Of a stretch of DNA of 64,000 bases, positions 21,960 through 43,506 are shown piece by piece (the stretch's first letter is position 1; each line of letters begins with the position of its first letter). A model generated the notes under the pieces. It was given only the letters and a program-made list of their open reading frames with translations, was not told where the DNA came from and searched no databases. The DNA lies in NCBI RefSeq assembly GCF_009192765.1, contig NZ_VOHQ01000010.1:124001-188000 (forward strand). The letters are read 5' to 3'. The position numbers were made by a program, and so were the translations under genes. Source of the DNA: Agriterribacter humi (lineage in GTDB: Bacteria > Bacteroidota > Bacteroidia > Chitinophagales > Chitinophagaceae).

Positions 21960-22255
21960 TCAATTTGAAAATTTGAAAATGTGGGAATTTAAAAATGTAG
22001 CAGTTTGCACGCAACAAAAGGAGCGTCAGACCGCGGATGAATGTGAGAAATGTGGAAATGCGAAAAATGTGGAAGATATAATATAAAGCACCAGGAAATC
22101 ACAAAAACAAACCCGTCCTCCGTGTCGGATAAATCTCAAACCCAGCGACCGGCACAGGATATCATCATTCAGCCGTCAGCTATGAATACACTTAACCTGT
22201 GAACTGAAACTTGTAACCTGTAACCTGAAACATCTCCTAATCTTTTACTTTTTTT
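21960..22255. other. Intergenic region with short tandem repeats
   Basis: Just under 300 bp. It contains tandem AATTTGAAAA units near 21961-21985 and a run of AACCTGT-like heptamers at 22191-22232 (AACCTGTG, AACTGAA, AACTTGT, AACCTGT, AACCTGA). No gene is supported. Confidence 0.5.
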
Positions 22256-22972
22256 ATGAAAATATACATATTGTTCCTGCTCCTCTTTTCCTGTCATAAT
22301 ATATTTGGACAGGAATTTGCCCATGGCCCTGATCCCTTGCCGGTGAAACCTTGTACAGATTTTGCAATAACCGGTAAAGGAGAAAATGCTGAATGGCAAA
22401 AAACCAACTGGATAAACCTTCATCAAATAGATGAGGGAAAAAAATATGAAACGAAATATAAAATCCTTTACTCTGTAAAAGGGATATATGTATTGTTCAG
22501 CGGAGAAGACGAAAAAATAACCAGCACATTTGAAAACGATTTCGATAACCTTTTTAATGCCGATGTATTTGAAGTATTCTTTCATCCGGATCCCTCAACA
22601 CCCTTATACTTTGAATACGAGATCAGCCCCCTGAACAAGGAGCTTGTATTGTTAATTCCCAATTTAAAGGGCGGGGCCTACGGCTGGACGCCCTGGCATT
22701 ATAGCGGAGAACGAAAAGTAAAGAAGAACGTGCACTTAGAAGGAGGACAGATGCAACCTGGCGCGGTTATCCGTTCATGGAGCGCAGAATTGTTTTTCCC
22801 CTACTCCCTCCTCAGCCCTTTAAGCAATATTCCGCCTGAAAGCGGCACGATATGGAACGCCAATTTTTGCAGGCTGGATTATGACAGTGGCAGCATGATC
22901 AAATGGTCATGGTCGCCGGTTGAACGGTCTTTTCATGAATTTAAAAAATTTCGTTCTATTCGCTTTGAATAA
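22256..22972 (+). CDS. Secreted CBM9-like carbohydrate-binding protein
   Basis: A 238-residue protein with a Sec signal peptide (ends IFGQ). The body fits the carbohydrate-binding family 9-like (DOMON-related) fold: a start with GENAEWQKTNWI, YSVKGIYVLFSGEDEKI, then NADVFEVFFHPD, YFEYEISPLNKEL, a late WSAELFFPYSLL and final Phe-His-Glu-Phe residues. Such proteins bind glycans outside the cytosol. It is the last plus-strand gene before the tRNA and may belong with the two secreted proteins upstream, although a 296-bp gap separates them. Confidence 0.75.
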   Translation: MKIYILFLLLFSCHNIFGQEFAHGPDPLPVKPCTDFAITGKGENAEWQKTNWINLHQIDEGKKYETKYKILYSVKGIYVLFSGEDEKITSTFENDFDNLFNADVFEVFFHPDPSTPLYFEYEISPLNKELVLLIPNLKGGAYGWTPWHYSGERKVKKNVHLEGGQMQPGAVIRSWSAELFFPYSLLSPLSNIPPESGTIWNANFCRLDYDSGSMIKWSWSPVERSFHEFKKFRSIRFE

Positions 22973-23008
22973 TGCCTATAGGCTATGCTTCAATATTCCA
23001 AAAAGCCT

Positions 23009-23016
23009 TACATTTG
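23009..23016 (+). promoter_or_regulatory. -7 box (TACATTTG) of the tRNA-Leu promoter
   Basis: An exact TAnnTTTG element ends 24 bp before the tRNA. A TTC at 22989-22991 is a weak -33 candidate. The spacing suits transcription starting close to 23022. Confidence 0.55.
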
Positions 23017-23040
23017 CAACCGCTTCAAAAGCAAGCGGAT

Positions 23041-23124
23041 GCCCAGGTGGCGAAACTGGTAGACGCACTACTTTGAGGTGGTAGCGCTGGAAACGGCGTG
23101 CTGGTTCGAATCCAGTCTTGGGCA
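23041..23124 (+). tRNA. tRNA-Leu (anticodon GAG)
   Basis: The acceptor arms GCCCAGG (23041-23047) and CTTGGGC (23117-23123) pair with one G-T pair. A D-arm with GGTAGACGC, an anticodon stem CTACT/GGTAG around the loop TTGAGGT (anticodon 23075-23077), a long class II variable arm and a TTCGAATC T-loop are all present. Discriminator A is at 23124 and CCA is not encoded. The long variable arm and loop place it as leucine. It is directly followed by an intrinsic terminator that lies inside a recombinase remnant. Confidence 0.95.
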
Positions 23125-23127
23125 CAA

Positions 23128-23338
23128 AAGTGGGCAAATCGAAAAATGACTCGGTTTGTCCATTTTTATTTTGGCTGAAACCCTTATCCAGACTGTATAT
23201 TAGCTCAACTGCTTCGTTCAGTCTAGCGGTTCGATATTGGAATCCGTCAAAAACGAGTTTTTCAGGATATATCGAACCAATTATCTCCCGCTTGCCCTTA
23301 TTATCGGCTTTTTCGTATAGCATGTCAATGATATTGGT
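23128..23338 (-). pseudogene. C-terminal remnant of a serine recombinase abutting tRNA-Leu
   Basis: The minus strand encodes about 65 residues that read as the end of a Bacteroidota large serine recombinase: LYEKADNKGKREIIGSIYPE, then KLVFDGFQYRTARLNEAVE and LIYSLDKGFSQNKNGQTESF. No catalytic domain remains. The open frame runs on into the antisense of the tRNA (GFEPARRF...), the usual artefact when an integrase gene ends at a tRNA target site. This points to an old element inserted at the 3' end of the tRNA gene. Confidence 0.7.
23131..23170 (+). terminator. Intrinsic terminator of tRNA-Leu
   Basis: Eleven base pairs (23131-23141 with 23152-23162, two of them G-U) enclose a 10-nt loop, followed by TTTTTATTTT. 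It starts six bases after the tRNA. The same bases on the other strand encode the conserved tail of the recombinase remnant. Confidence 0.8.
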
Positions 23339-23744: not shown

Positions 23745-24377
23745 CTAGTTAAATGTATTCATCAGCTTTATCTCATTCCGGTATAAGATGATCTTGCCGT
23801 CATTTTCTAATTGCTTTAACAAACGGGATATTACCACCCTTGATGTAGCCAATTCATCTGCTATAAGGTAATGAGATGCTTTTATAACACTGGAGCCGGT
23901 AAGGCGTTGTTTTTCTTTCAGGTAATGAATGAGGCGTTCGTCTAATTTATGAAAGGCAATACTTTCAATAGATTTTAGCAACTCTAAAAAACGTCCATTA
24001 AAACTACGCATGATGTAGTTTTTCCAGCTTGTATATTTGCATAGCCATTCTTCAAGCTTAATATGCGGTATCGCAAGCAACTCAACATCATCTTCAGCAA
24101 TCGCTCTTACTTCACTTTTTTTTGCTTCCACACAGCAGCTATAGGCCATGGAACAGCTTTCATTGCTGGATAGATAATACAGCAAAATTTCTTTGCCATT
24201 TTCATCCATTCTAAATACTTTGACGGTGCCTTTTATAATCAATGGCATCATACGGATATACTTACCATAATCCATAATAATGTCGCCTTCCTTAAAAAAT
24301 TTATATTCACCAAATTGATGCATTTCCTTTACCAGGGCTGGTTCAAATATTGCATCAAAAGTTGAGGGAGTAGTCAT
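23745..24377 (-). CDS. Crp/Fnr family transcription regulator
   Basis: A 210-residue regulator with a cNMP-binding-type beta-roll (about residues 20-115), a dimer helix and a C-terminal winged helix whose recognition helix lies near 172-190 (ADELATSRVVISRLLKQLEN). It lacks the N-terminal Fnr iron-sulfur cysteines but has Cys75, Cys81, Cys82 (ESCSMAYSCC) and Cys113, which could sense thiol-reactive or persulfide signals. It is the last gene of the minus-strand island and has its own leader. Palindromes at three promoters in the island (31031, 32858, 35813) are the natural candidates for its operators. That link is inference. Confidence 0.85.
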   Translation of the reverse strand: MTTPSTFDAIFEPALVKEMHQFGEYKFFKEGDIIMDYGKYIRMMPLIIKGTVKVFRMDENGKEILLYYLSSNESCSMAYSCCVEAKKSEVRAIAEDDVELLAIPHIKLEEWLCKYTSWKNYIMRSFNGRFLELLKSIESIAFHKLDERLIHYLKEKQRLTGSSVIKASHYLIADELATSRVVISRLLKQLENDGKIILYRNEIKLMNTFN

Positions 24378-25242: not shown

Positions 25243-28200
25243 TTAGGTTATTTTTTTAGGGTATTTTTTACGTATCATTTTATAATACAATAGCGGCACA
25301 ACCAATAAAGTGAGAAATGTTGAAGTGATCGTTCCACCCATCAATGAAATAGCAAGTCCCTGGAATATTGGATCGAACAAAATAATAATCGCACCCAATG
25401 CTACTGCCCCGGCAGTTAATAAAATTGGTGTTGTACGAACTGCCCCTGCTTCTATGATAGCCTGTTTTAACGGAATACCTTCTCTTAAACGGATATTGAT
25501 AAAGTCAATGAGCAATACCGAGTTTCGGACCATCACACCTGCCAATGCTATAAATCCAATCATTGATGTAGCGGTGAAATAAGCACCCAGCATCCAGTGG
25601 CCTAACACTATTCCGATTAATGATAATGGTATAGCAGCCAGCATTACCAACGGCACAGTAAAGTTTTGAAACCAGCCCACTATCAATATGTAGATTAGTA
25701 AAATAACCACTCCAAATGCAATTCCCAGATCCCTGAATACTTCAAAAGTGATCTGCCACTCGCCATCCCATTTCAGAGTATAGTTGTCTTCCAATTCTGG
25801 TTGATGTGTATATTCTTCTTTTAAAGAGAAGCCTTTTGGAACAGTTATGTTTTTTAAGCTGTCAGAAATGCTTGCAATAGCATAAGAAGGACTTTCAAGT
25901 TTGCCCGACATATCGGCCAGTACATACACTACTTCTTTTTGATTCTTACGATAAATATTTTTCTGTTTGATTTGCCTGGTTACAGTCACCACATCCCTGA
26001 TGGGAACACTATTGCCTTGCATTCCGGTGATTCTTAAATCAAGTATATCATCTATATTGGCTTTGTCAGCATCACTTAACTGCAATTTTATAATGGTCTG
26101 ACTGAAGGATGCAGGTTCATATACATTGCCTACCGGCATGCCCGAAAGGGCAGCATTGATTGTGGCTGTCACCTGTGCAGTAGCAACACCGTGACGCATT
26201 GACTTTTCTTTATCCACCTCAAAGTGGTATTCAGGCTGGTCATCTTCTACCATCCAGTCAGCATCTACCACATCTGCTGTTTTATTAAAAAGCGTTTTTA
26301 CCTGCTTCGCAATTTTTATCTGCTCATTATAATCCGGGCCATAAATTTCTGCAACCAGTGTAGATAATACTGGTGGCCCTGGTGGCACTTCCACGATCTT
26401 TGCGTTGGCATTGTATTTTTTAGCAATTGCCTGGATAGGGGCACGCATTTTTTTGGCAATATCATGACTTTGAATACTGCGATCTTTTTTATCAACAAGG
26501 TTTATTTGTATGTCCGCCACATTATCGCCTCTGCGTAGATCATAATGCCTCACCAAGCCATTAAAACTAATTGGCGCTGACGTGCCAATATAGACCTGGT
26601 AGTTTTCCACCAATGGCTGAGCTGCAACATAACCCGCTATATCTTTTGCAACGGCTTGTGTTTTTTCCAGTGTAGTTCCTTCGGGCATATCAATTACTAC
26701 CTGGAATTCATTCTTATTATCGAAGGGTAGCATTTTTAAGGCCACTGACTTAGTGTAGAATAGCATCATTGATCCTAACAGTATCACAACTATACTGAGA
26801 ATAAATGTCCAGCGTTTCCAGCGTGTTTCCAGCATGGGGTTAATGAAGGCACGATAAATTTTATAGATACGGCCTTCTTCCAGAGCATGCACTTTACTTT
26901 CTTTATGAGCGCCGCCTTTCTTTTCTTTTTCACGAAGAAATATATAACCGAGATAAGGAGTAAGTGTTAATGCAACTATCAATGATAACATCATGGCAAT
27001 GGATGCTCCAATCGGCATCGGACTCATGTACGGGCCCATCATTCCGGATACAAATGCCATTGGCAATACCGCCGCAACCACAGTTAACGTTGCAAGTATT
27101 GTAGGATTGCCTACTTCATTGATCGCATAGATAGCAGCCTGCAGCGGCGGCAGTTTTTTCATCTTAAAATGCCGGTGCATATTCTCCGCAATGATGATAG
27201 AGTCATCTACCACAATACCCGTAATAAATACTAGTGCAAAAAGGGTAATACGGTTTAAAGTATAATCCATCATGTAATAACTGAACAGTGTAAGTGCAAA
27301 CGTTACAGGTACAGATAAGAATACGACAAGACCACCACGCCAGCCCATGGCGAGCATTACAAATAACGTAACCACCACTATTGAAATAAACAAATGAAAC
27401 AACAGTTCCGAAACTTTATCCGATGCAGTTTCCCCATAGTTTCTGCTAACAGTCAATTGTACCTCACTGGGCAGTAATTCTTTTTTAAGGTGCTCAACTT
27501 TATTAATGATTTGTTCTGACAGTTTCATTGCATCTGCACCTTTCTTTTTAGCAACGCTTAAAGTAATGGCAGGGTAATTTGATTTGAAAGCATTCGCTTT
27601 TGAAGTATCTGCATTGCCATAACCAAACAGTACATACTGACTGGCTGTTTCAGGCCCTTCTTCAACCTTTGCTATTTGTTTTAAGTAAACAGGTTGTTGC
27701 TGATTGATACCAATCACAAGATTGGCCACATCATCGGAGGTTGTAAGAAAGTTTCCTGTTTCAACAGAAAATGCGGTATCCTGCTGTAATAAGTTGCCAG
27801 CCTGAACCTGTACATTACTGCCCTGTATTTGTTTGCTGATGGATAAAAAATCAACATGGTTTTCTGCCATTTTGTTTTTATCCAGCAAAACTTTTACTTC
27901 CCGGCTTCTGCCACCTAAAATATTAATGTCCGCAACGTCGGGTATCTTCTTTACTTCATTCGTCAGTGCCTGTGCAATTTGTTTCAACTGGTAGTCATCA
28001 TACTTTTCACTCCACAGTGTTAAGCCTAATACGGGTACATCATCAATTGCTCTTGTTTTTATCAATGGTAGTGTAACACCCTGCGGCATTTTATCCATGT
28101 TTTTCATCAACTCACTGAACAATTTTACCAAAGAACGCTCCACATCTTCGCCCACTTTAAACTGAACAATCAGCATAGCCTGCCCTTTCATGGAAGTAGA

Positions 28201-28458
28201 ATACACATACTCCACACCCTTCACATTGGAGATCATTTTTTCCATAGGTGCCGCTACTTTTGTTTCCACATCTTTGGGTTCAGCACCAGGGTAGCCGATA
28301 AAAATATCCGCCATCGGAACTTTTATCTGCGGTTCTTCTTCCCGTGGAATTAAAAAAGTGCTGTAACCACCAATCAGCAAAAAGGCAATCATTAACAGTA
28401 TCGTTAATTTAGATTGTAAGAAACCTTTGGCTATATTTCCTGAAAGACCGTTTTTCAT
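25243..28458 (-). CDS. RND efflux transporter permease
   Basis: A 1071-residue inner membrane RND pump with the standard twelve-helix plan and two large periplasmic loops. The first helix follows the usual N-terminal SKLTILLMIAFLLIGGY, and the fourth helix holds the proton-relay pair in GIVVDDSIIIAENMHRH. It works with the adaptor and TolC proteins encoded just upstream to move substrates across both membranes using the proton gradient. The sequence resembles the AcrB/hydrophobe-type branch more than CusA. The gene context suggests sulfur or metal stress, but the substrate is not visible from sequence. Confidence 0.9.
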   Translation of the reverse strand: MKNGLSGNIAKGFLQSKLTILLMIAFLLIGGYSTFLIPREEEPQIKVPMADIFIGYPGAEPKDVETKVAAPMEKMISNVKGVEYVYSTSMKGQAMLIVQFKVGEDVERSLVKLFSELMKNMDKMPQGVTLPLIKTRAIDDVPVLGLTLWSEKYDDYQLKQIAQALTNEVKKIPDVADINILGGRSREVKVLLDKNKMAENHVDFLSISKQIQGSNVQVQAGNLLQQDTAFSVETGNFLTTSDDVANLVIGINQQQPVYLKQIAKVEEGPETASQYVLFGYGNADTSKANAFKSNYPAITLSVAKKKGADAMKLSEQIINKVEHLKKELLPSEVQLTVSRNYGETASDKVSELLFHLFISIVVVTLFVMLAMGWRGGLVVFLSVPVTFALTLFSYYMMDYTLNRITLFALVFITGIVVDDSIIIAENMHRHFKMKKLPPLQAAIYAINEVGNPTILATLTVVAAVLPMAFVSGMMGPYMSPMPIGASIAMMLSLIVALTLTPYLGYIFLREKEKKGGAHKESKVHALEEGRIYKIYRAFINPMLETRWKRWTFILSIVVILLGSMMLFYTKSVALKMLPFDNKNEFQVVIDMPEGTTLEKTQAVAKDIAGYVAAQPLVENYQVYIGTSAPISFNGLVRHYDLRRGDNVADIQINLVDKKDRSIQSHDIAKKMRAPIQAIAKKYNANAKIVEVPPGPPVLSTLVAEIYGPDYNEQIKIAKQVKTLFNKTADVVDADWMVEDDQPEYHFEVDKEKSMRHGVATAQVTATINAALSGMPVGNVYEPASFSQTIIKLQLSDADKANIDDILDLRITGMQGNSVPIRDVVTVTRQIKQKNIYRKNQKEVVYVLADMSGKLESPSYAIASISDSLKNITVPKGFSLKEEYTHQPELEDNYTLKWDGEWQITFEVFRDLGIAFGVVILLIYILIVGWFQNFTVPLVMLAAIPLSLIGIVLGHWMLGAYFTATSMIGFIALAGVMVRNSVLLIDFINIRLREGIPLKQAIIEAGAVRTTPILLTAGAVALGAIIILFDPIFQGLAISLMGGTITSTFLTLLVVPLLYYKMIRKKYPKKIT

Positions 28459-28516
28459 TGTGTGTATTAATTCGTTTATAATCTTCGTGGCAGTAGTTGA
28501 AATCTTCCTTCGCTGC

Positions 28517-29617
28517 TTATTTAATTTTTATTGGAATACCATTGTATAATTTTCCGTCCGCAGTTACAACAAACTGTTCATTTTTTTCCAGGCCACTCAA
28601 TACTTCTACTTTATCGCCGAAAGTTTTTCCTAAACGCACCCACCGGAGCAAGGCAGTGTTATTACTGCCGATAGTGTATAAACCAGTTAACTGGTCTCTA
28701 TGCTCAATGCTGGAAACCGGCACCATTACCGAGTTTCCTGTTGTTGTAACAGCTACCGGTTCTTTTACAGGGATCGAAACTGTTGCGTACATACCGGCAT
28801 ACAACCCCTTTTTATCTGCATCAGCAATATTTACTTTTATGATATACTGGCCACCTGTAAATTGTGACGATGGATTGATTTGAACAACAGTGCCTTTAAT
28901 TGTTTTATCAATTGATTTGATAGTTACAAATGCTTCTGCGCCCTGGTGAATTTGATTGATGATATTTTCCGGCACGGATGCACTTACCTGGTAGCTTCCA
29001 CTTTGTTCGATAGTTAATATCGGCATACCCGGATTTGCCATACTTCCGGCATCTGCTAATTTTTGTGTTACAATTCCGGAGAAAGGCGCAGTTAAGCTGG
29101 TGTAACCCAGGCTTGCATTTACTTCATTCCGCATCTGTCTTGCACCTTCTAATCTTGATTTCGCTGAGTTATATTGGAGTGTAACATTGTCCAACTCTTT
29201 TGCAGTAGCACTTTGTTGTTTATATAAAGTAGTAAACCGCTCATAATCCTTTTGCGCACTGTTCAAAGCAGCCTGCGCCTCAGAAATCATTGCATCAGTT
29301 TGCCCTCTTTTTGCTATCATATCCTGGTTACTGATAGTAGCCAGTAACTGGCCTTTACTTACATGATCGCCCACTTTTACTTTCAGCATTGTTATAAAAC
29401 CCATCACTCTTGTGCTGATATTTGCGGTTTGCGATGCTTCAATTTGTCCGCTTACATTTATTCCCTGTTGACCTGTACCGGATGGAGTAGCAACTGTTAC
29501 CATTACTGCTGCATCTGTGTTTGCAATAGCAACTTCTTCTTTGTTAGAAGAACAGGCGCTGAAAACAATCAGTCCGATACCTGCAAATATTTGTGAAGTC
29601 GTTTTTAAATTAATCAT
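28517..29617 (-). CDS. RND periplasmic adaptor lipoprotein
   Basis: A 366-residue membrane-fusion protein with a lipobox at FSAC. The order is a biotinyl-lipoyl half (ISTRVMGFITMLKVKVGDHV), a coiled-coil hairpin (about residues 100-170), the second lipoyl half (TAPFSGIVTQKLADAGSMA) and beta-barrel domains. It bridges the RND pump to the outer membrane channel. It sits between the TolC gene (21 bp) and the pump gene (58 bp). Confidence 0.9.
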   Translation of the reverse strand: MINLKTTSQIFAGIGLIVFSACSSNKEEVAIANTDAAVMVTVATPSGTGQQGINVSGQIEASQTANISTRVMGFITMLKVKVGDHVSKGQLLATISNQDMIAKRGQTDAMISEAQAALNSAQKDYERFTTLYKQQSATAKELDNVTLQYNSAKSRLEGARQMRNEVNASLGYTSLTAPFSGIVTQKLADAGSMANPGMPILTIEQSGSYQVSASVPENIINQIHQGAEAFVTIKSIDKTIKGTVVQINPSSQFTGGQYIIKVNIADADKKGLYAGMYATVSIPVKEPVAVTTTGNSVMVPVSSIEHRDQLTGLYTIGSNNTALLRWVRLGKTFGDKVEVLSGLEKNEQFVVTADGKLYNGIPIKIK

Positions 29618-29638
29618 CTTGCTTGTATTTAAAGTAGT

Positions 29639-30982
29639 TTATTTATTAGTTGAAGTGGTTAGTAATTGTAAATATGCTTTGGTAACATTGGTTGTAAAAA
29701 GTGCCTGCGCCAAAGCAAATTTTTGTTGCGAAAGTTGTGTGGCTGCCTGTAACACGTCGGTAGTATTTACAAGACCCTGTTGAAAGCGATTTTGTAAAAT
29801 TTGTAAAGCTTCAGTAGCCTGTTCGATAGACAACTTTTGCTGCTTAATATCAAATTGAGCGTCCGCAAGATCACGGTAAGCTTTGTTTATTTCTAATTGA
29901 CTTTGCTCTTTTTGCTGCGTTAGTTGTTCAGACAATTTATTGCGTTCTAATTTTTGTGTCGCAATCTTATTCTTAGTGCTGTTTCCTTTAAAAATATCCC
30001 ATGATAATTGCACGCCTGCCAAATAAGCATTAGCACTAAAGCCAAGCATCCGGTTATCATTTAACTGGTAACTTCCAAATGCGTTTAGCTTTGGATAATA
30101 ACTCATTTTATTGGATTGAATCATCAGGTCAGATGCTTCAATCGCTTTTTGCATGGCTACAAAATCTGATCTTGAAGCAGCAATCTTTGTAATCGTATCG
30201 CTTGCTAAACTTTCTGCTTGCATAGCATTATCTACTTTATAAATAAACCCATCTCCCTGCCCCATCAGCAGGCTGAGGTAATCAGATGCATTACGGATAT
30301 TACTGTTGGCTTTTGCAAGATTGGTTTCCACTGTTGTTACTTGTACCTGTACGTTCAATACATCGGATTTTTGAATTAATCCCTGCTTAAAATGGTTATC
30401 TGTAAATGTGTAAACAGATCTAGTTGTTTGCAATGCATCTTCTAAAACTTTCACTGCATCATAGGTCAGTTGGAGTTGCAGGTAAGCTTTTTGTACTTCA
30501 AAAGTTAGATACTCCTTGGTACGTTGTGTTTTGTATTGATATAATTCAGTTTGTTTTGCTGCCGCTTTTCTTTTGTATAACAAATCCATATTTACCAGGG
30601 GCTGCTGTACTTCCAGCTTTGTTGTAAAATCGCCGGTTGCTCCGGGGCTGTTTAACAATGCAGGATTGAAATCATTTTGAGTGATTGATTTTTGCTGCAG
30701 TTTAAATCCAAAAGCATTGAGTGGGTTATTGGTGCTCATGGCAGTGTAAGAAAACCCTACCTGCGGCAAATAGATAGCTTCTGTTTGCTTATAATTGGAT
30801 GCTGCTATACTTTCATCCAGCTTAGCCAGTTGAACGGCTTTGTTGTTATTTAGTGTAGCTTTAATGGCCTCATTTAGGCTTAAATGTTTTGTACTGTCCT
30901 GAGCTAAGGCGACTGACATGATACTGTTTAGAATGAGGGCTACCCCAACAACCTTTAAAACGAAATTTCTTCTTCTGTTCAT
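29639..30982 (-). CDS. TolC-family outer membrane efflux channel
   Basis: A 447-residue outer membrane channel and first gene of the five-gene RND operon. The start at 30982 gives a clean signal peptide (RRRNFVLKVVGVALI... ending ALAQ); the longer open frame upstream would run through the promoter. Two structural repeats of helices and strands are visible, including LSLNEAIKATLNNNKAVQLA and the second-repeat counterpart ending LLTTS. A TAGTTTTG promoter box and a Crp/Fnr-like palindrome lie directly upstream. Confidence 0.9.
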   Translation of the reverse strand: MNRRRNFVLKVVGVALILNSIMSVALAQDSTKHLSLNEAIKATLNNNKAVQLAKLDESIAASNYKQTEAIYLPQVGFSYTAMSTNNPLNAFGFKLQQKSITQNDFNPALLNSPGATGDFTTKLEVQQPLVNMDLLYKRKAAAKQTELYQYKTQRTKEYLTFEVQKAYLQLQLTYDAVKVLEDALQTTRSVYTFTDNHFKQGLIQKSDVLNVQVQVTTVETNLAKANSNIRNASDYLSLLMGQGDGFIYKVDNAMQAESLASDTITKIAASRSDFVAMQKAIEASDLMIQSNKMSYYPKLNAFGSYQLNDNRMLGFSANAYLAGVQLSWDIFKGNSTKNKIATQKLERNKLSEQLTQQKEQSQLEINKAYRDLADAQFDIKQQKLSIEQATEALQILQNRFQQGLVNTTDVLQAATQLSQQKFALAQALFTTNVTKAYLQLLTTSTNK

Positions 30983-31000
30983 TAGCTTTTTTATTTGTAG

Positions 31001-31044
31001 CAAAACTAACTGCATAAAAAAGGTTGAACTGTAACATTTGTAAC
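31001..31044 (-). promoter_or_regulatory. Promoter and putative Crp/Fnr operator of the RND operon
   Basis: On the minus strand a GTTACAAATGTTAC palindrome (31044-31031) is followed after exactly 22 bp by TAGTTTTG (31008-31001), an exact TAnnTTTG box, 18 bp before the TolC start. The operator centre falls near -41 from the expected start site, the class II activator position. The same arrangement occurs at 32828-32871 and 35783-35826. Confidence 0.65.
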
Positions 31045-31460
31045 TTACCACAGAGCTAATTCCTTTCTCGTCAACATGTAACAGGCGTTCGCCTTTCTTA
31101 GGATCCTGTACACCTTTTTGTATTTGTCCTTTTTTTTCATGCTGCAACTATTTTTGACTGATAAGTATTGTATCAGGAAGTAAAGGTTAGTTTATCATAT
31201 CTGTGAAGTATTACACAATAGAAGAAATGACTTGTATCATTCACACATTTGAATAACCGTATTGCCTATTAGAAGAATATTACAAGAAACACAGGCAAAA
31301 GATTACAAATCAAAATAATTGCCGGCCCAAGCGTAGGTTATTCTTGAAAATATTTCATTAGCTGAAAGCCGCCAAACAGCATAGAATTAGTGGAAATAAA
31401 AAAGTACTGTTCCGATATCGAATATCAAAACAGTACTCATTCAATCAATCTCTTGGTTAA
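31045..31460. other. Intergenic region upstream of the RND operon
   Basis: About 415 bp without a supported gene. The minus-strand open frame extending from TolC to 31147 is not preferred because it crosses the promoter. The rhodanese operon terminator occupies 31396-31437. Confidence 0.5.
31396..31437 (-). terminator. Intrinsic terminator of the rhodanese operon
   Basis: On the minus strand AGTACTGTT and AACAGTACT (31429-31437 and 31403-31411) form a 9-bp stem with an inner ATATC/GATAT pairing, followed by a T-rich tract. It lies 24 bp after the rhodanese stop codon. Confidence 0.85.
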
Positions 31461-37877: not shown

Positions 37878-38969
37878 TTAAGGATTAATTTTCCATACAG
37901 CTTCTGCACCCGCTTTTCTTTCATCGGTTGCACGAACAACCAAAGTATCTCCATTTTTAAGGTCACCGAAAATTTCAATACCTTTTTCTGTACTCATGCC
38001 CTGGCGTACATCCACCCATTCTGTCTTACCATTTCTGACAGCTATCACGAATTTCCTTTCCTGGTTAGTAGCAATTGTACCCGGTGCCACCACAAAGGAG
38101 GGCGCATCTCTTTGTAAATTAAGTTTTACATACGCAAAGCTCCCGGCTTTGAGCTGATTGTTCTTATTCACGAAGAGATACTCCCAGATTTCGGTCCTGT
38201 TTTTCGGATCAATTGCACCACTTTTTCTGACAAACTGTGCTGCAAAACTTTTGTTAGGATTACTTTGAACGCTAAACTGAACTTCCTTACCGGCAGTCCC
38301 GGTGGACACATACAATTCGGGAACCGCTACCCGCAATCTTAGGGTCCTTGTATGCTGCACCGTAAATATCGGGACCGTTTGACCAACCAATGCACCTCTA
38401 TCAGCATTCCGGGCCGTCACAATACCATCGAAGGGCGCAGTAATTAAAAGATAACCGGCTACTTCATTATAAGATTGGGCAAGACTTTTGGCACTCTCAT
38501 ACGCAGCACTATCCGCCAGTTTCTGGTTACGGCTTTTCTCCAGGTCAACAGGGGCAACGATGCCCGCCGATTTTGCCTGAGAGGCGTTGTATAACCGATC
38601 GTAAACATCTTTACTTGACTGGTATCTCGCCTTTGCAGAAAAAAGCGCGGATTTGTATTCGGCCGACTTTGTTCTTATTTCAGGTGCATCCAGCACAGCC
38701 AGCGTTTGCCCTTTCCTTACTTCGTCACCGATATCTACCCGCATTTCTTTAACATATGCCTCAACTTTTGCTGTCAGGTCTGCTGTTTCGTAAGGCAATA
38801 ACTCAGCCGGAAGTTCGATGGACTTACTCACATCGGAGCTTGTTAGAACAAACACGGGAACGGTATCTCTTACCTCTCCGGCAGTCTCTGTATTTTTTGA
38901 GTTTTTCTTTTCTGTACAGGCTGTAAAGAATAGTATAACTAATGAAAATTGGGCTATTGATTTTGTCAT
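37878..38969 (-). CDS. RND periplasmic adaptor lipoprotein (second system)
   Basis: A 363-residue membrane-fusion protein with lipobox FFTAC. Lipoyl halves (LTAKVEAYVKEMRVDIGDEV and TAPFDGIVTARNADRGALVG) enclose a coiled-coil hairpin rich in Ala, Ser and Lys; beta-barrel domains follow. It is the last gene of a TolC-RND-adaptor operon, 14 bp after the permease gene. It links pump and outer membrane channel. Confidence 0.9.
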   Translation of the reverse strand: MTKSIAQFSLVILFFTACTEKKNSKNTETAGEVRDTVPVFVLTSSDVSKSIELPAELLPYETADLTAKVEAYVKEMRVDIGDEVRKGQTLAVLDAPEIRTKSAEYKSALFSAKARYQSSKDVYDRLYNASQAKSAGIVAPVDLEKSRNQKLADSAAYESAKSLAQSYNEVAGYLLITAPFDGIVTARNADRGALVGQTVPIFTVQHTRTLRLRVAVPELYVSTGTAGKEVQFSVQSNPNKSFAAQFVRKSGAIDPKNRTEIWEYLFVNKNNQLKAGSFAYVKLNLQRDAPSFVVAPGTIATNQERKFVIAVRNGKTEWVDVRQGMSTEKGIEIFGDLKNGDTLVVRATDERKAGAEAVWKINP

Positions 38970-38983
38970 CTTATTGTTTTCGG

Positions 38984-41900
38984 CTAATTTTTATTCAATA
39001 ATTCCGGATCATCGGGATCCAGCGATATTACTTTAAACTTTCGGTTTCCCGCTGCCCATTGATATACTGCCGGCAAGAAGAATAACACGCTTATGGTGGA
39101 AGTGATCAGCCCTCCAATAACCGCTATGCCAAGCGGTGCGATCTGTCCTCCCCCTAATGCCATTGGGATCATGCCGGCGATCATTGCCATACTGGTCATC
39201 AGGATTGGACGGAGGCGTGTTTCGGCAGAAAGCAAATGGGGATTTTGCGTGTTGCCACTTTTCCGAAGAACCTCTGCATTGGTTACAAACAACACGGCAT
39301 TGGCAATGGCAACGCCTATCGCCATGATCGTTCCCATATAGGACTGAATATTCATGGACTGACCAGTGAGCAGCAATAACATTAAAGCGCCTGCAATAAC
39401 GGCCGGTATAACAGCCAACATAACCGCGGCAATCCGAAACGATTGGAAAAATACTGCCATCAGCAGAAAAATGACCACCATTGCTACCAATAACCCAAAC
39501 TGTAAACTGCTTAGCGTTTGAGAAAGTAGTTCTGATTGTCCCCTTAATAATATTTTAGCACCCCTGGGCAACTCAGATCGTATGCTTTCAACAATTTTTT
39601 CAGTTTGCTTGAAAGCCGATCCCAGATCTTTGTCGTGAACATTTGCAGTGACTGTAATATATCGTTGCTGGTTTAACCGGTCATACTCCCCAGGCATAGT
39701 GATCATTTTCCAGGATGCCACTTCGTTTAACAGGTGCGAATTACCGTTACCTGTACTTACAGGTATCATTTCTATCTGTGAAGTAGAATTCATCCGGTAT
39801 TCCGGATATTGGACCTGGACAATATAGGCCGTTCCGGTCGTTTTATCGAGCCAGTAACCAGGCGACATAAAACGTGTGCTCGATGTTGCAGCAACTATAG
39901 AGCGTGTAATCTGTTCAGCGGTTAAATTAAGCTGTCCGGCTTTAACTCTGTCCACATCTATTTTTATAGCAGGATAGTCCAGTGGGGTTGCAATTTGTAC
40001 ATCACGCATGTACGGCAATGCGGACAATTCATTAACTATTTTTTTGGCAGTAACTTTTCCCTGTTCCAGATTTTTATTCACTACTGCAATCTCTACCGGA
40101 TTGGTTGTTCCCATATTTAACACCTGGCTGGCAATGTCACCGGGTTCAAAAGAAATTATTGCATTGGGCAGTTCCTTTTTTACCTGCGCCCTGAGTTGTT
40201 CCTTAAAATCTTCTATCGGTATTGATCCGCTGCGTAGCTTTATTTTTGTTACACTTTCATGTGGGCCACCTGTCCATAAATATATATAGTTGACCGGAAA
40301 ACTGGATGGTTGTGTGCCCACAAAAGCAGAGGTAATTTCTACATTCTCTTTGCCTGCTATTTTCGAAGATAATTGCAGCAATTTTCTCGTGGCATCTTCA
40401 GTTCTTTCCAATCTTGTTCCAACCGGCAGCCTCAACCTCACCTCTGTCTGCCCGGTATCAACTGTCGGAAACAGTTCTGTACCGATGCTGATAAAAAATA
40501 AGACAACCAGGCCAATGGACAGGGCAGAAAACAATAAGGTAACAAGGGCTGTCTTACGGGACAGCCGAACTATAGCGCCTTTATATCTTTTTTTTAATCG
40601 TTCAAAAAGATTATTGGAATGGGTGTTAGCAAGATGGTTTTTCATCATCCAGTTACTTATTACAGGAACAAAGGTTTGAGATAACAGGAAGGAAGCAATC
40701 ATCGCGAAACCAACAGCTAATGACAGTGGCATAAACATGGCCCGGGGAACTCCATTCATAAATAAGGAAGGAACAAACACCGCGAGGATGCTCAGCAGGA
40801 TCAATAATTTTGGGGTGGCGACTTCTTTACAGGCATCAGCTATTGCCTGGCGCTTTTCTTTCCCCATTTCCAGGTGCCGGTGTATATTTTCTATCGTAAC
40901 TGTTGCTTCGTCCACTAAAATTCCTACCGACAAGGCCAACCCTCCAAGGGTCATGATATTAATGGTTTGACCGAAAAGATATAATACCGTAGCTGAAGTC
41001 AGTAACGCTAACGGGATCGTCATGACCACTATTAAAGCGCCTCTCTTGTCCCCTAAGAAAAGCAATACCATCAGGCCCGTTAAAACTGCGCCTAATCCAC
41101 CTTCAAATAATAAACTTTTTAAAGCACTGACTACATATCCGGATTGGTCAAACTCATAAGATACTTTAATATCTTCCGGTATTGCAGCCTGCATATCGGG
41201 TAAGGAAGCTTTTACCAATTTAACAACGTCCCAGGTCGAAGCGTCGGCCCGTTTTGTTACCGGAATGTACACGGAGCGTTTTCCATTAACCAGTGCATAA
41301 CTGGTAGTAACATCAGATCCAATACTGACGGTTGCAATATCTTTTACAAATACTGATGTGCCGCTTCCTTTTTGCAGGGGTGTATTTTCCAGGTCCTGCA
41401 AATTTTCGATCACACTATTCTGAGGCGTTAGGTACGTGCTGTCTCCAATCCTGACATTGCCCGCAGGAGATATGGTGTTGGAAGTAGCTAAAGACTGCAT
41501 CACCTGCTCGGGAGAAAGTTGGTAATTCCGGATTTTATCAGGATCTATATTAACAATAACGGTTTTGTTATTTCCACCGAAAGGCGGCGGGGCGGATACT
41601 CCGGGCAGTGTAGAAAACATCGGTCTCACTCTGAACAACGCCAAATCGGAGATTTCGCCCAATGATTTGGTTTCCGAACTGAATACCAGTTGACCTACCG
41701 GTACACTCCCGGCATCAAAGCGGGTGATGAAGGGAGGAACAGTGCCCGGAGGCATGAATGCCCTGGAGCGATTCACATAACCAACAACCTCTGCCATGGC
41801 CTGCGCCATGTCGGTACCTTCATTAAATTCGATCTTGATAATGGCGGCGCCCTGTATGGATTTGGAGTCAACATATTTTACACCGGTTATATACAAAAAA

Positions 41901-42109
41901 TGATATTCGTAATAGGAAGTAACAAAGCCCTCCATTTGTTCTGGTGAAAGCCCGCCATAAGGCTGGGCCACATATACTGTAGGTAAGCCCAACGTGGGAA
42001 ATATATCTATTTTACTGTTGCGAATGGAGAGATAGGAAAAAAAAGCAATCCCCATAACCGCCACAAGAACAGTTATTGGATGCCTGAGTGCTGATACAAT
42101 AAGTTTCAT
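38984..42109 (-). CDS. RND efflux transporter permease (second system)
   Basis: A 1041-residue RND pump. The fourth-helix proton relay region is SVGILVDEATVTIENIHRH, with only one Asp of the usual Asp-Asp pair, as in several Bacteroidota RND proteins of the AcrB/MdtBC-like branch. Large periplasmic domains and twelve helices are in normal order. Its partners are the TolC-type gene 8 bp upstream and the adaptor 14 bp downstream. The AraC regulator encoded just upstream probably controls it. Substrate unknown. Confidence 0.9.
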   Translation of the reverse strand: MKLIVSALRHPITVLVAVMGIAFFSYLSIRNSKIDIFPTLGLPTVYVAQPYGGLSPEQMEGFVTSYYEYHFLYITGVKYVDSKSIQGAAIIKIEFNEGTDMAQAMAEVVGYVNRSRAFMPPGTVPPFITRFDAGSVPVGQLVFSSETKSLGEISDLALFRVRPMFSTLPGVSAPPPFGGNNKTVIVNIDPDKIRNYQLSPEQVMQSLATSNTISPAGNVRIGDSTYLTPQNSVIENLQDLENTPLQKGSGTSVFVKDIATVSIGSDVTTSYALVNGKRSVYIPVTKRADASTWDVVKLVKASLPDMQAAIPEDIKVSYEFDQSGYVVSALKSLLFEGGLGAVLTGLMVLLFLGDKRGALIVVMTIPLALLTSATVLYLFGQTINIMTLGGLALSVGILVDEATVTIENIHRHLEMGKEKRQAIADACKEVATPKLLILLSILAVFVPSLFMNGVPRAMFMPLSLAVGFAMIASFLLSQTFVPVISNWMMKNHLANTHSNNLFERLKKRYKGAIVRLSRKTALVTLLFSALSIGLVVLFFISIGTELFPTVDTGQTEVRLRLPVGTRLERTEDATRKLLQLSSKIAGKENVEITSAFVGTQPSSFPVNYIYLWTGGPHESVTKIKLRSGSIPIEDFKEQLRAQVKKELPNAIISFEPGDIASQVLNMGTTNPVEIAVVNKNLEQGKVTAKKIVNELSALPYMRDVQIATPLDYPAIKIDVDRVKAGQLNLTAEQITRSIVAATSSTRFMSPGYWLDKTTGTAYIVQVQYPEYRMNSTSQIEMIPVSTGNGNSHLLNEVASWKMITMPGEYDRLNQQRYITVTANVHDKDLGSAFKQTEKIVESIRSELPRGAKILLRGQSELLSQTLSSLQFGLLVAMVVIFLLMAVFFQSFRIAAVMLAVIPAVIAGALMLLLLTGQSMNIQSYMGTIMAIGVAIANAVLFVTNAEVLRKSGNTQNPHLLSAETRLRPILMTSMAMIAGMIPMALGGGQIAPLGIAVIGGLITSTISVLFFLPAVYQWAAGNRKFKVISLDPDDPELLNKN

Positions 42110-42117
42110 GTTGTTTT

Positions 42118-43506
42118 CTAACGATTAAAAAATAAATTCAAATCTCCTTTCGCAACACTGATTTCAAGCAACGAACGCTGTAAGATCAATTGTGCGCCTG
42201 CATTGTTTATTTCGGCCTGCTGCAGTTCATACTGGGATTGTGCCAGGCGTGTAAAATCTACCAACCCAGCCTCGTAACTCAATTTTAAACTATTAAAAGC
42301 ATCTGAAGCACTTTTCTGGCGTATGGCCATCTTTTTAGTTACTGCCAAATTTGATAGGTATTGCTGTATGGCCATATCAACCTGTTTATTCAGATCCAGT
42401 TCAATTTGATTTATGCGGTATTCATCTGCTTTTAGCAATTGCTCATATTGTTTTTTCCTGGCATTCAGTTGATAAAATTGAAGCAGAGGAAAACTTAACT
42501 GGATGCCGATGCCTATGTTGTTTCTGTTAAGGTTAAATCCCTCCGGTTTGTTAATATTTCCTGTCGCATCAATTCCTGAGCCTCTACGATACACATTTCC
42601 CCAAATATCCAGTTTGGGCCGCCATGACATATTAACTTCTTTCAATTGGGCAGCAGTAACATCTTTTTGTGCTGCTGCTGTCAGATAAAACGGATGGCCA
42701 GAAATATTTATGGCTGTATCTATCTCCGTGTTGCGGCTATCAAGACTATCAAACACGGTGTCAATAAGAATGATGTTATAATCTTTGTTTTTGCTTCCAA
42801 TAAGTGCAGACAATTCGATTATTTTTTGCTTATAGTTATTTTCACTTTGCAACAGGTCAATTTCTGCCTGAGCTATGGAACTTTGAATTTGAAGGGTGTC
42901 TATTCCCGGCTTTAAGCCATTCTTCGCCAGGATCAATGACTGTTCCAAATTGCTTTGATACCTGCTGATATTGGATTTATTGCTGGCGATAATTTGCTGA
43001 AAGTAAACAGCCTCTATATAGGCGTTAACCGCCGCAAACTCATATTTGAACGATTCTTCGTTGTAGTCTGCATTAGCTAGTTTATATTGTGATGTCGCCC
43101 TTTGTATAGCTGAGCTTCGCTGTCCGAATGTAATCGGGTGCCAGGTTACAAATGCAGTTGCCGCCGATCCCGGTACGAAATTAATATCGTTATTTGCAGA
43201 GGGCGGCCCGCTGATAGGCATGATCAACCCGGGATAGCTCATACCTGTGATATTATTGAACGTTGCCAGATTAGCCTGGTAGGCAACAGACACATCGGGC
43301 ATTAAACTTCTTTTCTCATAATCAATTAATGATTTGCTTGCCTCTGTGTTCGCTTTAGCCACATGGAGTGCAGGCAGATTAGTTCGTACAAGTAAAGGAA
43401 TGTCATTTAATGACAATCGTTGCTGGGTATGCCCTTCAATGGGAATAAAGAAATTGACTATAAATAGACAAATTACACACCGTATTCTTAATACCGTTTT
43501 ATTCAT
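42118..43506 (-). CDS. TolC-family outer membrane efflux channel (second system)
   Basis: A 462-residue outer membrane channel with a signal peptide ending GHTQQ. Repeats of the TolC fold are visible: LSLNDIPLLVRTNLPALHVA at the start of the first and the long helices ending LLEISVAKGDLNLFF at the C-terminus. It is the first structural gene of the RND operon, 80 bp downstream of the AraC gene on the same strand. Confidence 0.9.
   Translation of the reverse strand: MNKTVLRIRCVICLFIVNFFIPIEGHTQQRLSLNDIPLLVRTNLPALHVAKANTEASKSLIDYEKRSLMPDVSVAYQANLATFNNITGMSYPGLIMPISGPPSANNDINFVPGSAATAFVTWHPITFGQRSSAIQRATSQYKLANADYNEESFKYEFAAVNAYIEAVYFQQIIASNKSNISRYQSNLEQSLILAKNGLKPGIDTLQIQSSIAQAEIDLLQSENNYKQKIIELSALIGSKNKDYNIILIDTVFDSLDSRNTEIDTAINISGHPFYLTAAAQKDVTAAQLKEVNMSWRPKLDIWGNVYRRGSGIDATGNINKPEGFNLNRNNIGIGIQLSFPLLQFYQLNARKKQYEQLLKADEYRINQIELDLNKQVDMAIQQYLSNLAVTKKMAIRQKSASDAFNSLKLSYEAGLVDFTRLAQSQYELQQAEINNAGAQLILQRSLLEISVAKGDLNLFFNR

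Follow-up and report, generated by a model that had tools for sequence, protein, structure and literature searches.

The 64-kb window analysed here, a continuous stretch of 64,000 nucleotides, belongs to a genome of 5.7 Mb in 34 contigs. It carries a gene for tRNA-Leu(GAG) on the forward strand, at positions 23041-23124 (Rfam RF00005, 47.8 bits; ARAGORN places the end at 23125), and the 3' end of this gene is the attachment side. The tRNA gene is followed on the same strand by an intrinsic-terminator hairpin, at 23126-23167, and by a T tract, TTTTTATTTT, at 23163-23172, which is seen in the sequence and in a pattern scan. The hairpin has a minimum free energy of -20.9 kcal/mol with a z score of -5.6, none of 200 shuffled sequences folds equally well, and the terminator pattern scan also picks it up. 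The stem as predicted has 17 pairs, which include G-U pairing and four closing A-U pairs. Its first pair other than A-U is at 23130, six bases past the last base of the tRNA, and its core, at 23132-23161, is bounded by G-C and consists of 11 pairs between 23132-23142 and 23151-23161.

The opposite strand of the hairpin encodes the C-terminal end of a large serine recombinase. By tblastn, the segment 23332-23129 aligns with residues 444-511 of one intact recombinase, L005 (84% identity, E 6e-32), and with residues 448-514 of another, L008 (87% identity, E 2e-31). The remnant, at 23129-23332 of the reverse strand, therefore covers only about the last 70 residues of the intact proteins (approximately residues 444-514). 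It lies in an open frame of 120 amino acids, from stop to stop, at 22979-23338 of the reverse strand, which continues through the antisense strand of the tRNA; the same read-through is found in the relatives. Since tblastn finds no further significant piece of recombinase in the 64-kb window, the copy in the window is a remnant. On its own, it has no accepted match in Pfam or NCBIfam. A preliminary description of this DNA had placed an 11-bp stem with a T tract six bases after the tRNA and had read the same bases, antisense, as the conserved tail of a serine recombinase remnant; both statements are confirmed by the coordinates, the z score and the identities given above.

Recombinase family

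The 71-residue tail, taken without the part that overlaps the tRNA, has matches in 112 of 294 genomes of the same family, which represent 61 of 101 genera (E up to 0.01). The full-length protein has matches in 59 of 396 genomes sampled from the order (E up to 1e-40) and in 32 of 395 sampled from the phylum (E up to 1e-70). At most three candidates per genome were scored in the order and phylum samples, so that copy numbers are lower bounds. With an alignment of 21 relatives as query, 571 genome loci were confirmed and more exist; the best 80 of them, from Flavobacterium, Chitinophaga, Pedobacter, Sphingobacterium, Algoriphagus and other genera, were taken. Of 80 viral contigs fetched with the same 21-row alignment, nine hold family members, judged by HMM score. 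The short tail used as query has no matches in viral contigs, plasmids or phages.

A cut-off of 400 was set on the HMM score, within a gap that extends from 372 to 452. It excludes the window (L001, L004) and the fragmentary loci L012, L014, L022, L024, L031 and L032; of these fragments, L012, L014, L022, L024 and L032 abut a tRNA and have the hairpin all the same. Once duplicates and 10 loci that were too short or fragmentary had been removed, the first set comprised 116 non-redundant members. The phylum sample, which was collected later and to which the cut-off was not applied (L311 scores 372 and L312 scores 331), added 24 loci, which are 26 loci less two duplicates (L291, identical to L082, and L292, identical to L091). 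The combined set has 140 non-redundant members from Bacteroidota, with some near-copies remaining (L045, L046 and L203; L053 and L060; L077 or L103 with L289). The members have common ancestry, and the counts given below are therefore not counts of independent events.

Intact relatives are mostly about 525-545 amino acids long and are composed of a Resolvase domain, a Recombinase domain and a zinc ribbon. The first two are above the curated cut-off in all five relatives scanned; the zinc ribbon is matched in all five and is above its cut-off in L008 only. This domain set (PF00239, PF07508 and PF13408), the resolvase motif and a match to PHROG 95, annotated as 'integrase', are those of the known large serine recombinases. 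An invariant R-V-S-T-D-E-Q-A segment holds S22 in all 21 aligned relatives, and we take this residue of the RVSTDEQ-type motif to be the catalytic serine. The best NCBIfam matches, CcrB and XisF, score far under their cut-offs. A structure predicted with AlphaFold2 from the 21-row alignment has a mean pLDDT of 75 and a pTM of 0.37. Its last helix ends at residue 496, and the successive blocks from residue 481 onward have pLDDT values of 57, 50, 49 and 40. The model, in which parts of the catalytic domain score equally low, gives a slight hint that the tail encoded by the hairpin could be disordered and might tolerate a constraint at the RNA level.

Junction with tRNA genes

Of the 140 members, 109 abut a convergent tRNA gene at its 3' end. 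These comprise 90 of the 116 members in the first set, where a tRNA on the opposite strand starts within 60 nt of the end of recombinase homology, and 19 of the 24 new loci from the phylum sample. The tRNA genes that are abutted represent 12 isotypes and 24 anticodons. A quick tree was made of 108 recombinases, 105 of them different, leaving out rows without an abutting tRNA, with a score under 440, with a stop codon or with too little sequence. On this tree, in which many branches are weakly supported, the isotype label changes 35 times by parsimony, compared with 67.9 times when the labels are shuffled, which indicates frequent retargeting within a preference at the level of clades.

The recombinase frame runs into the tRNA gene. 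In all 90 abutting members of the first set the stop codon lies within or beyond the tRNA, 11-280 nt in, and in 108 of the 109 abutting members the frame reads at least 11 nt into the tRNA. The exception, L296, has its stop 1 nt into the tRNA, after an apparent frameshift. The last residues of the integrated enzyme would thus be written by the host tRNA. Of the 80 members of the first set with a canonical antisense T-loop (TCGAAC or TTGAAC), 79 have it in one common recombinase phase, and in this phase it yields the C-terminal motif G-[FIL]-E-P. The 10 of 90 abutting members that have no canonical T-loop are all at Arg tRNAs. Among the 19 new abutting loci, 14 of 15 canonical T-loops are in the usual phase, with L306 as the exception. 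The motif is also present in 18 members that do not abut a tRNA, in the usual phase in 12 of them and in another phase in six. In L008 and its relatives the motif, found within the last 15 residues or so, is the antisense T-loop, and gene callers may trim or misjudge this overlap.

Antisense hairpin

A hairpin was counted by a strict rule, which allows at most one mismatch and calls for at least three G-C pairs and at least six T in the 10 nt after a G-C pair. This rule was adopted after an earlier one had missed closing A-U pairs, and it was applied alike to members and controls. By the earlier rule, 92 of 116 members have the hairpin (1 of 116 on the other strand), while body windows pass in 83 of 1850 cases antisense and 29 of 1850 sense. 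By the strict rule, the hairpin is found in 84 of the 90 abutting members of the first set and in 21 of the 26 others, compared with 2 of 90 and 1 of 26 on the recombinase-sense strand. Body windows of the same genes pass in 22 of 1850 cases antisense (19 of 699 in a second sampling) and in 4 of 1850 sense. Of the 61 distinct large serine recombinases that are unrelated to the family, one passes. The T tract is on the tRNA strand. A terminator for the recombinase's own transcript was also considered and was rejected, since the hairpin is on the wrong strand for it.

When the strict rule is anchored at the tRNA edge, a hairpin with T tract is found in 101 of the 109 abutting members of the combined set. 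The stem starts 1-11 nt past the tRNA in these 101, and 3-6 nt past it in 87 of them. A rule that allows bulges passes seven more members, with energies from -14.6 to -22.1 kcal/mol except for L017 (-4.6), but it is lax, as it also admits 110 of 680 body windows rejected by the strict rule (129 of 699 pass one rule or the other), and these seven cases count little. L311 has no hairpin by either rule and is the sole such case among the 109. In the phylum sample, the 19 abutting loci divide into 17 strict, one lax and one without a hairpin. The terminator-like hairpin antisense in the recombinase tail is a family-wide feature.

The remaining 31 of the 140 members are not next to a whole tRNA. 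In 25 of them, the hairpin directly follows a stretch that resembles a tRNA 3' end, in part by eye; of the 26 non-abutting members of the first set, 12 have a regular T-loop, and the other tRNA-like ends were judged by eye. Neither a tRNA end nor a hairpin is present in L120, L308, L309 and L310. The only hit of the rule in L223 does not adjoin a tRNA end, and L307, a fragment, lacks the tail. This pattern of presence and absence fits the hypothesis of a replacement terminator. The preliminary description had proposed to check whether relatives end at tRNA genes and whether their tails fold into an antisense terminator, and had named intact homologues away from tRNA genes, or tails without a conserved hairpin, as evidence to the contrary. 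The first point holds for the 109 abutting members, and the second for 101 of them by the strict rule and seven by the lax one, with compensatory change keeping the hairpin, as described below. Homologues away from tRNA genes do exist, the 31 just described, but 25 of them keep the hairpin after a tRNA-like end.

In L030, L068, L086 and L305, a complete tRNA lies about 130-250 nt past the end of homology, with a second tRNA 3' end between the two. This layout could be the scar of a later insertion and excision.

Base pairing in the stem

The 101 strict hairpins have 84 distinct sequences. Several pair types occur at each stem position (103 hairpins, including two duplicates), but each hairpin is represented by its own best stem, so that pairing is there by construction. 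A better measure is a neighbour-pair test, in which the stem of one member was checked in up to three near neighbours, with 96 distinct windows and with member pairs that may count in both directions. Where both sides of a pair have changed, 190 of 230 cells still pair, compared with 27-51% when the partners are slid by 1-3 bases. Where only one side has changed, pairing is kept in 190 of 312 cells (61%), compared with 37-50% in the slid controls. In a test with a fixed structure on a 97-row alignment, the covariation measure is 0.306, above all 500 column shuffles (0.177). The same measure at a slide of -1 is 0.272 and cannot be separated from that at slide 0, because two registers are mixed in the alignment. 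An automatic RNA consensus model gave no consensus pair. The distant members L312 (33% identity to the query) and L306 have wholly different stems in the same place, and the stem of L214, another distant member, is likewise unrelated in sequence.

Resampling of synonymous codons, by each gene's own usage, produces the hairpin in 11.6% of cases, compared with 105 of 116 members observed. Taken singly, just 25 of the 105 positive members fall under 5% in this test, so that the signal lies in the sum more than in single genes. That the hairpin is a by-product of a conserved protein tail, which happens to be palindromic in DNA, is therefore rejected as next to impossible: the 11.6% exceeds the 1.2% of body windows and the individual members are mostly unremarkable, so that the amino acids do favour a hairpin somewhat, but the observed frequency is far higher, codon choice in the tail is not simply the gene-wide usage free of an excess of pairing, the both-sided changes preserve pairs and the stems of distant members have nothing in common.

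Origin of the hairpin

The hairpin could instead be the host tRNA's own terminator, with the element inserted beyond it and the overlap of the frames accidental. In eight genomes, all 13 distinct tRNA-Leu genes that are free of such an element do have a terminator of their own directly after the tRNA (14 rows, 12 strict and two by the bulge rule, two of the rows being one gene). These terminators are all unlike that of the element, by eye. Three unrelated hairpins follow tRNA-Leu(GAG) in G239, G028 and G123, genomes of the same genus as the window. Three Pinibacter genomes, G109 among them, each have a different terminator after the same tRNA-Arg(TCT); one of these terminators is the recombinase tail, and another precedes an ORF that resembles a tyrosine integrase (by eye).

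Recombinases that are at least 90% identical and are found at tRNA genes of the same isotype with another anticodon have hairpins that are 90-100% alike (19 pairs), whereas their tRNAs are 61-89% alike. In one such comparison, L005 at Leu-CAG and L037 at Leu-GAG, both recombinase and hairpin are identical, and the tRNAs are 72% alike. The hairpin goes with the recombinase and not with the host tRNA. Moreover, the residues encoded by the hairpin in the window remnant match intact relatives from other genera, 25 members away from a whole tRNA have the hairpin, and a repeat in G288, which starts 13 nt inside the tRNA, continues into a second copy of the tail. A terminator owned by the host was rejected on these grounds, and we give it almost no chance.

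Attachment sites

The crossover is probably located in the last 13-15 nt of the tRNA, as judged from a few cases. In G288, the last 13 nt of tRNA-Arg are found again 23 kb away, ahead of the second tail copy, and in two elements on viral contigs, L116 and L119, about 14-15 nt of the tRNA 3' end are present. In G109, a match of 14 nt lies 25.8 kb away; it is unconfirmed, and by our own estimate about 0.04 such matches are expected per element. The right flank of this match agrees with sister genomes only from base 207 on, with no tRNA there, and a search with a sister flank found, outside the sister itself, only short dispersed repeats.

A far site was sought through repeats of the tRNA 3' end over 80 kb in five elements, four of which were extended to 140-160 kb, over 120 kb in G207, over about 78 kb in 15 more elements, and in detail at the island edge of G216. 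Over these distances of about 80-160 kb, most elements show no convincing far site, with G288 as the only clear case; the displaced host terminator has consequently not been seen. A pattern scan of eight genomes matches the tRNA-Leu genes as well as L283, L284 and L285, which are not whole tRNAs, and none of these matches looks like a far site. In G216, TraG-like, TraM-like and metal-efflux ORFs were recognized by eye, and past the tRNA G+C is lower over a stretch of about 124 kb. One gene located 455 nt after the tRNA in the sister genome G164 is about 130 kb away in G216 (82% over 220 amino acids). No far site was recognized at this island edge. The G216 element looks like an integrative conjugative element.

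Further copies of the tail or of the tRNA 3' end occur at several loci. In G288 (contig C1), the family tails L359 and L360, at 5003595 and 5026764, are 23 kb apart and form a tandem array in one tRNA. At L249/L255 (G180, contig C7, about 28200-28620), three more tRNA 3' ends, with a spacing of about 138 nt, are found past tRNA-Arg(TCT), and each has its own near-identical terminator, an apparent array of leftover attachment sites. At L285/L286 (G215, contig C57, 20428 and 20538), a second tRNA-Leu 3' end is 110 nt past a whole tRNA-Leu(CAA). A similar partial copy of tRNA-Leu is found on another contig, at L284, and these could be further attachment scars.

Across 97 windows, a GGA found at nearly the same distance from the tRNA is conserved to at least 90%. 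Recombinase binding or the protein may account for part of this conservation. Beside the crossover, large serine recombinases require arms of the attachment site, and the inverted repeat could be mainly a DNA site bound by the recombinase, such as one of these arms, with its likeness to a terminator incidental. A palindrome for binding, however, needs no T tract on one strand, and the recombinase-sense strand has hardly any hits. It should also not accept G-U pairs, whereas the stem cells comprise 1061 Watson-Crick pairs, 94 G-U pairs and 19 mismatches. Together with the unrelated stems of L312, L214 and L306, this makes a mere binding site quite improbable.

Discussion

The most probable explanation is that insertion of the element displaces the terminator of the host tRNA gene and that the element brings a replacement inside the tail of its integrase; we assign this reading a probability of about 0.84. 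The interpretation in the preliminary description is supported by much more than the one remnant in the window. It is built on the observed position, strand and frame of the hairpin, on its covariation and excess over coding constraint, and on its origin in the element. In this mechanism, the large serine recombinase would integrate a mobile element at the 3' end of a tRNA gene, with its own gene at the edge of the element, pointing at the tRNA, and with its last codons running into the tRNA antisense. The tRNA's own intrinsic terminator would be pushed away. On the tRNA strand, the DNA of the last 16 or so codons ahead of the tRNA would provide a hairpin, a few nucleotides past the tRNA, and then a T tract. 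Transcription running out of the tRNA would end at this point, giving a short tRNA transcript and also keeping the tRNA promoter from driving an antisense run into the integrase gene. A replacement terminator makes sense for a convergent integrase, since read-through would be antisense to it. Termination at the hairpin in the cell and displacement of the old terminator are both suggested by this arrangement, and the benefit under selection may be to the tRNA, to the integrase gene or to both.

The terminator might mainly protect the integrase gene, and with it the element, against antisense transcripts that start at the tRNA promoter, with tRNA function secondary. The integrase is convergent with the tRNA and beside it in all 109 abutting members, although this follows from the definition of the class. 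In ICEKp1, insertion displaces the tRNA terminator, a displacement that matters according to a 2026 study, and the integrase gene, which has the same orientation as the tRNA, can then be driven by the tRNA promoter (PMC13023037); the orientation in the present family is the opposite. The hairpin is also kept in members that do not adjoin a whole tRNA, which fits shielding and a benefit to the tRNA alike. We regard shielding as the main role as a tenable idea, with odds somewhat against it.

A further idea is that about 50 bases hold up to four messages, namely the recombinase C-terminus, the terminator, an arm of the attachment site with its GGA, and the antisense tRNA 3' end, and that the C-terminus of the integrated form, written by the host, differs from that of the excised form. 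We consider this combination unlikely. If true, the recombinase protein could vary with its target and with its state of integration.

Islands are known to rebuild the genes into which they insert. Islands and ICEs such as NBU1 and KplE1 insert at tRNA 3' ends and leave the tRNA whole, with the integrase gene beside the tRNA and, in some, convergent with it (PMC2951348, PMC5704250, PMC12884075). The present family resembles them in its insertion at the tRNA 3' end and in the integrase gene that adjoins the tRNA. It differs from islands with a tyrosine integrase, presumably including ICEKp1, in that the enzyme is a serine recombinase whose gene overlaps the convergent tRNA gene, and in that the terminator lies within the coding tail. 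While ICEKp1 loses the terminator, the element of this family supplies a new one.

Serine integrases of IMEs and of streptococcal ICEs are described as inserting inside protein genes (PMC5704250, PMC4701971). Streptococcal ICEs in rumA have direct repeats of 2-21 bp in the target gene and in the integrase gene, and because of the repeat in the integrase gene, integration changes the C-terminus of the integrase (PMC4701971). Their target is a protein gene, unlike the tRNA targets of this family, and the word 'terminator' does not occur in the main text of that paper. In one large survey, the main text does not contain the word 'tRNA' (PMC10083194). Each component described here, serine integrase, tRNA-targeting island and intrinsic terminator, is thus of a known kind. 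In our searches of the open-licence literature of PMC, we found no description of an integrase tail that encodes the terminator of a tRNA, which is the arrangement that combines them.

The family appears to represent an evolved answer to the loss of a terminator, which was kept while the target switched among 12 isotypes. Its many members form a large natural collection of serine integrases that target tRNA genes and that could be of use in engineering Bacteroidota genomes. It is also a clean system for the evolution of one sequence that is constrained as coding DNA on one strand and as RNA on the other.

For the window itself, the best explanation is that the mobile element has been lost and that its surviving end still sits as the terminator of tRNA-Leu(GAG).

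Other features of the window were observed in the neighbourhood. A short dispersed repeat, at 22204-22245, lies ahead of a gene at 22256 and matches several places in its own and sister genomes. Beyond the remnant there are a gene for a Crp-like regulator, at 23745-24377, and two RND-type efflux sets, at 25243-31147 (by eye) and at 37878-43506 (confirmed by Pfam). The G216 element has efflux genes that look similar by eye, and the efflux and regulator genes of the window could in part be old cargo.
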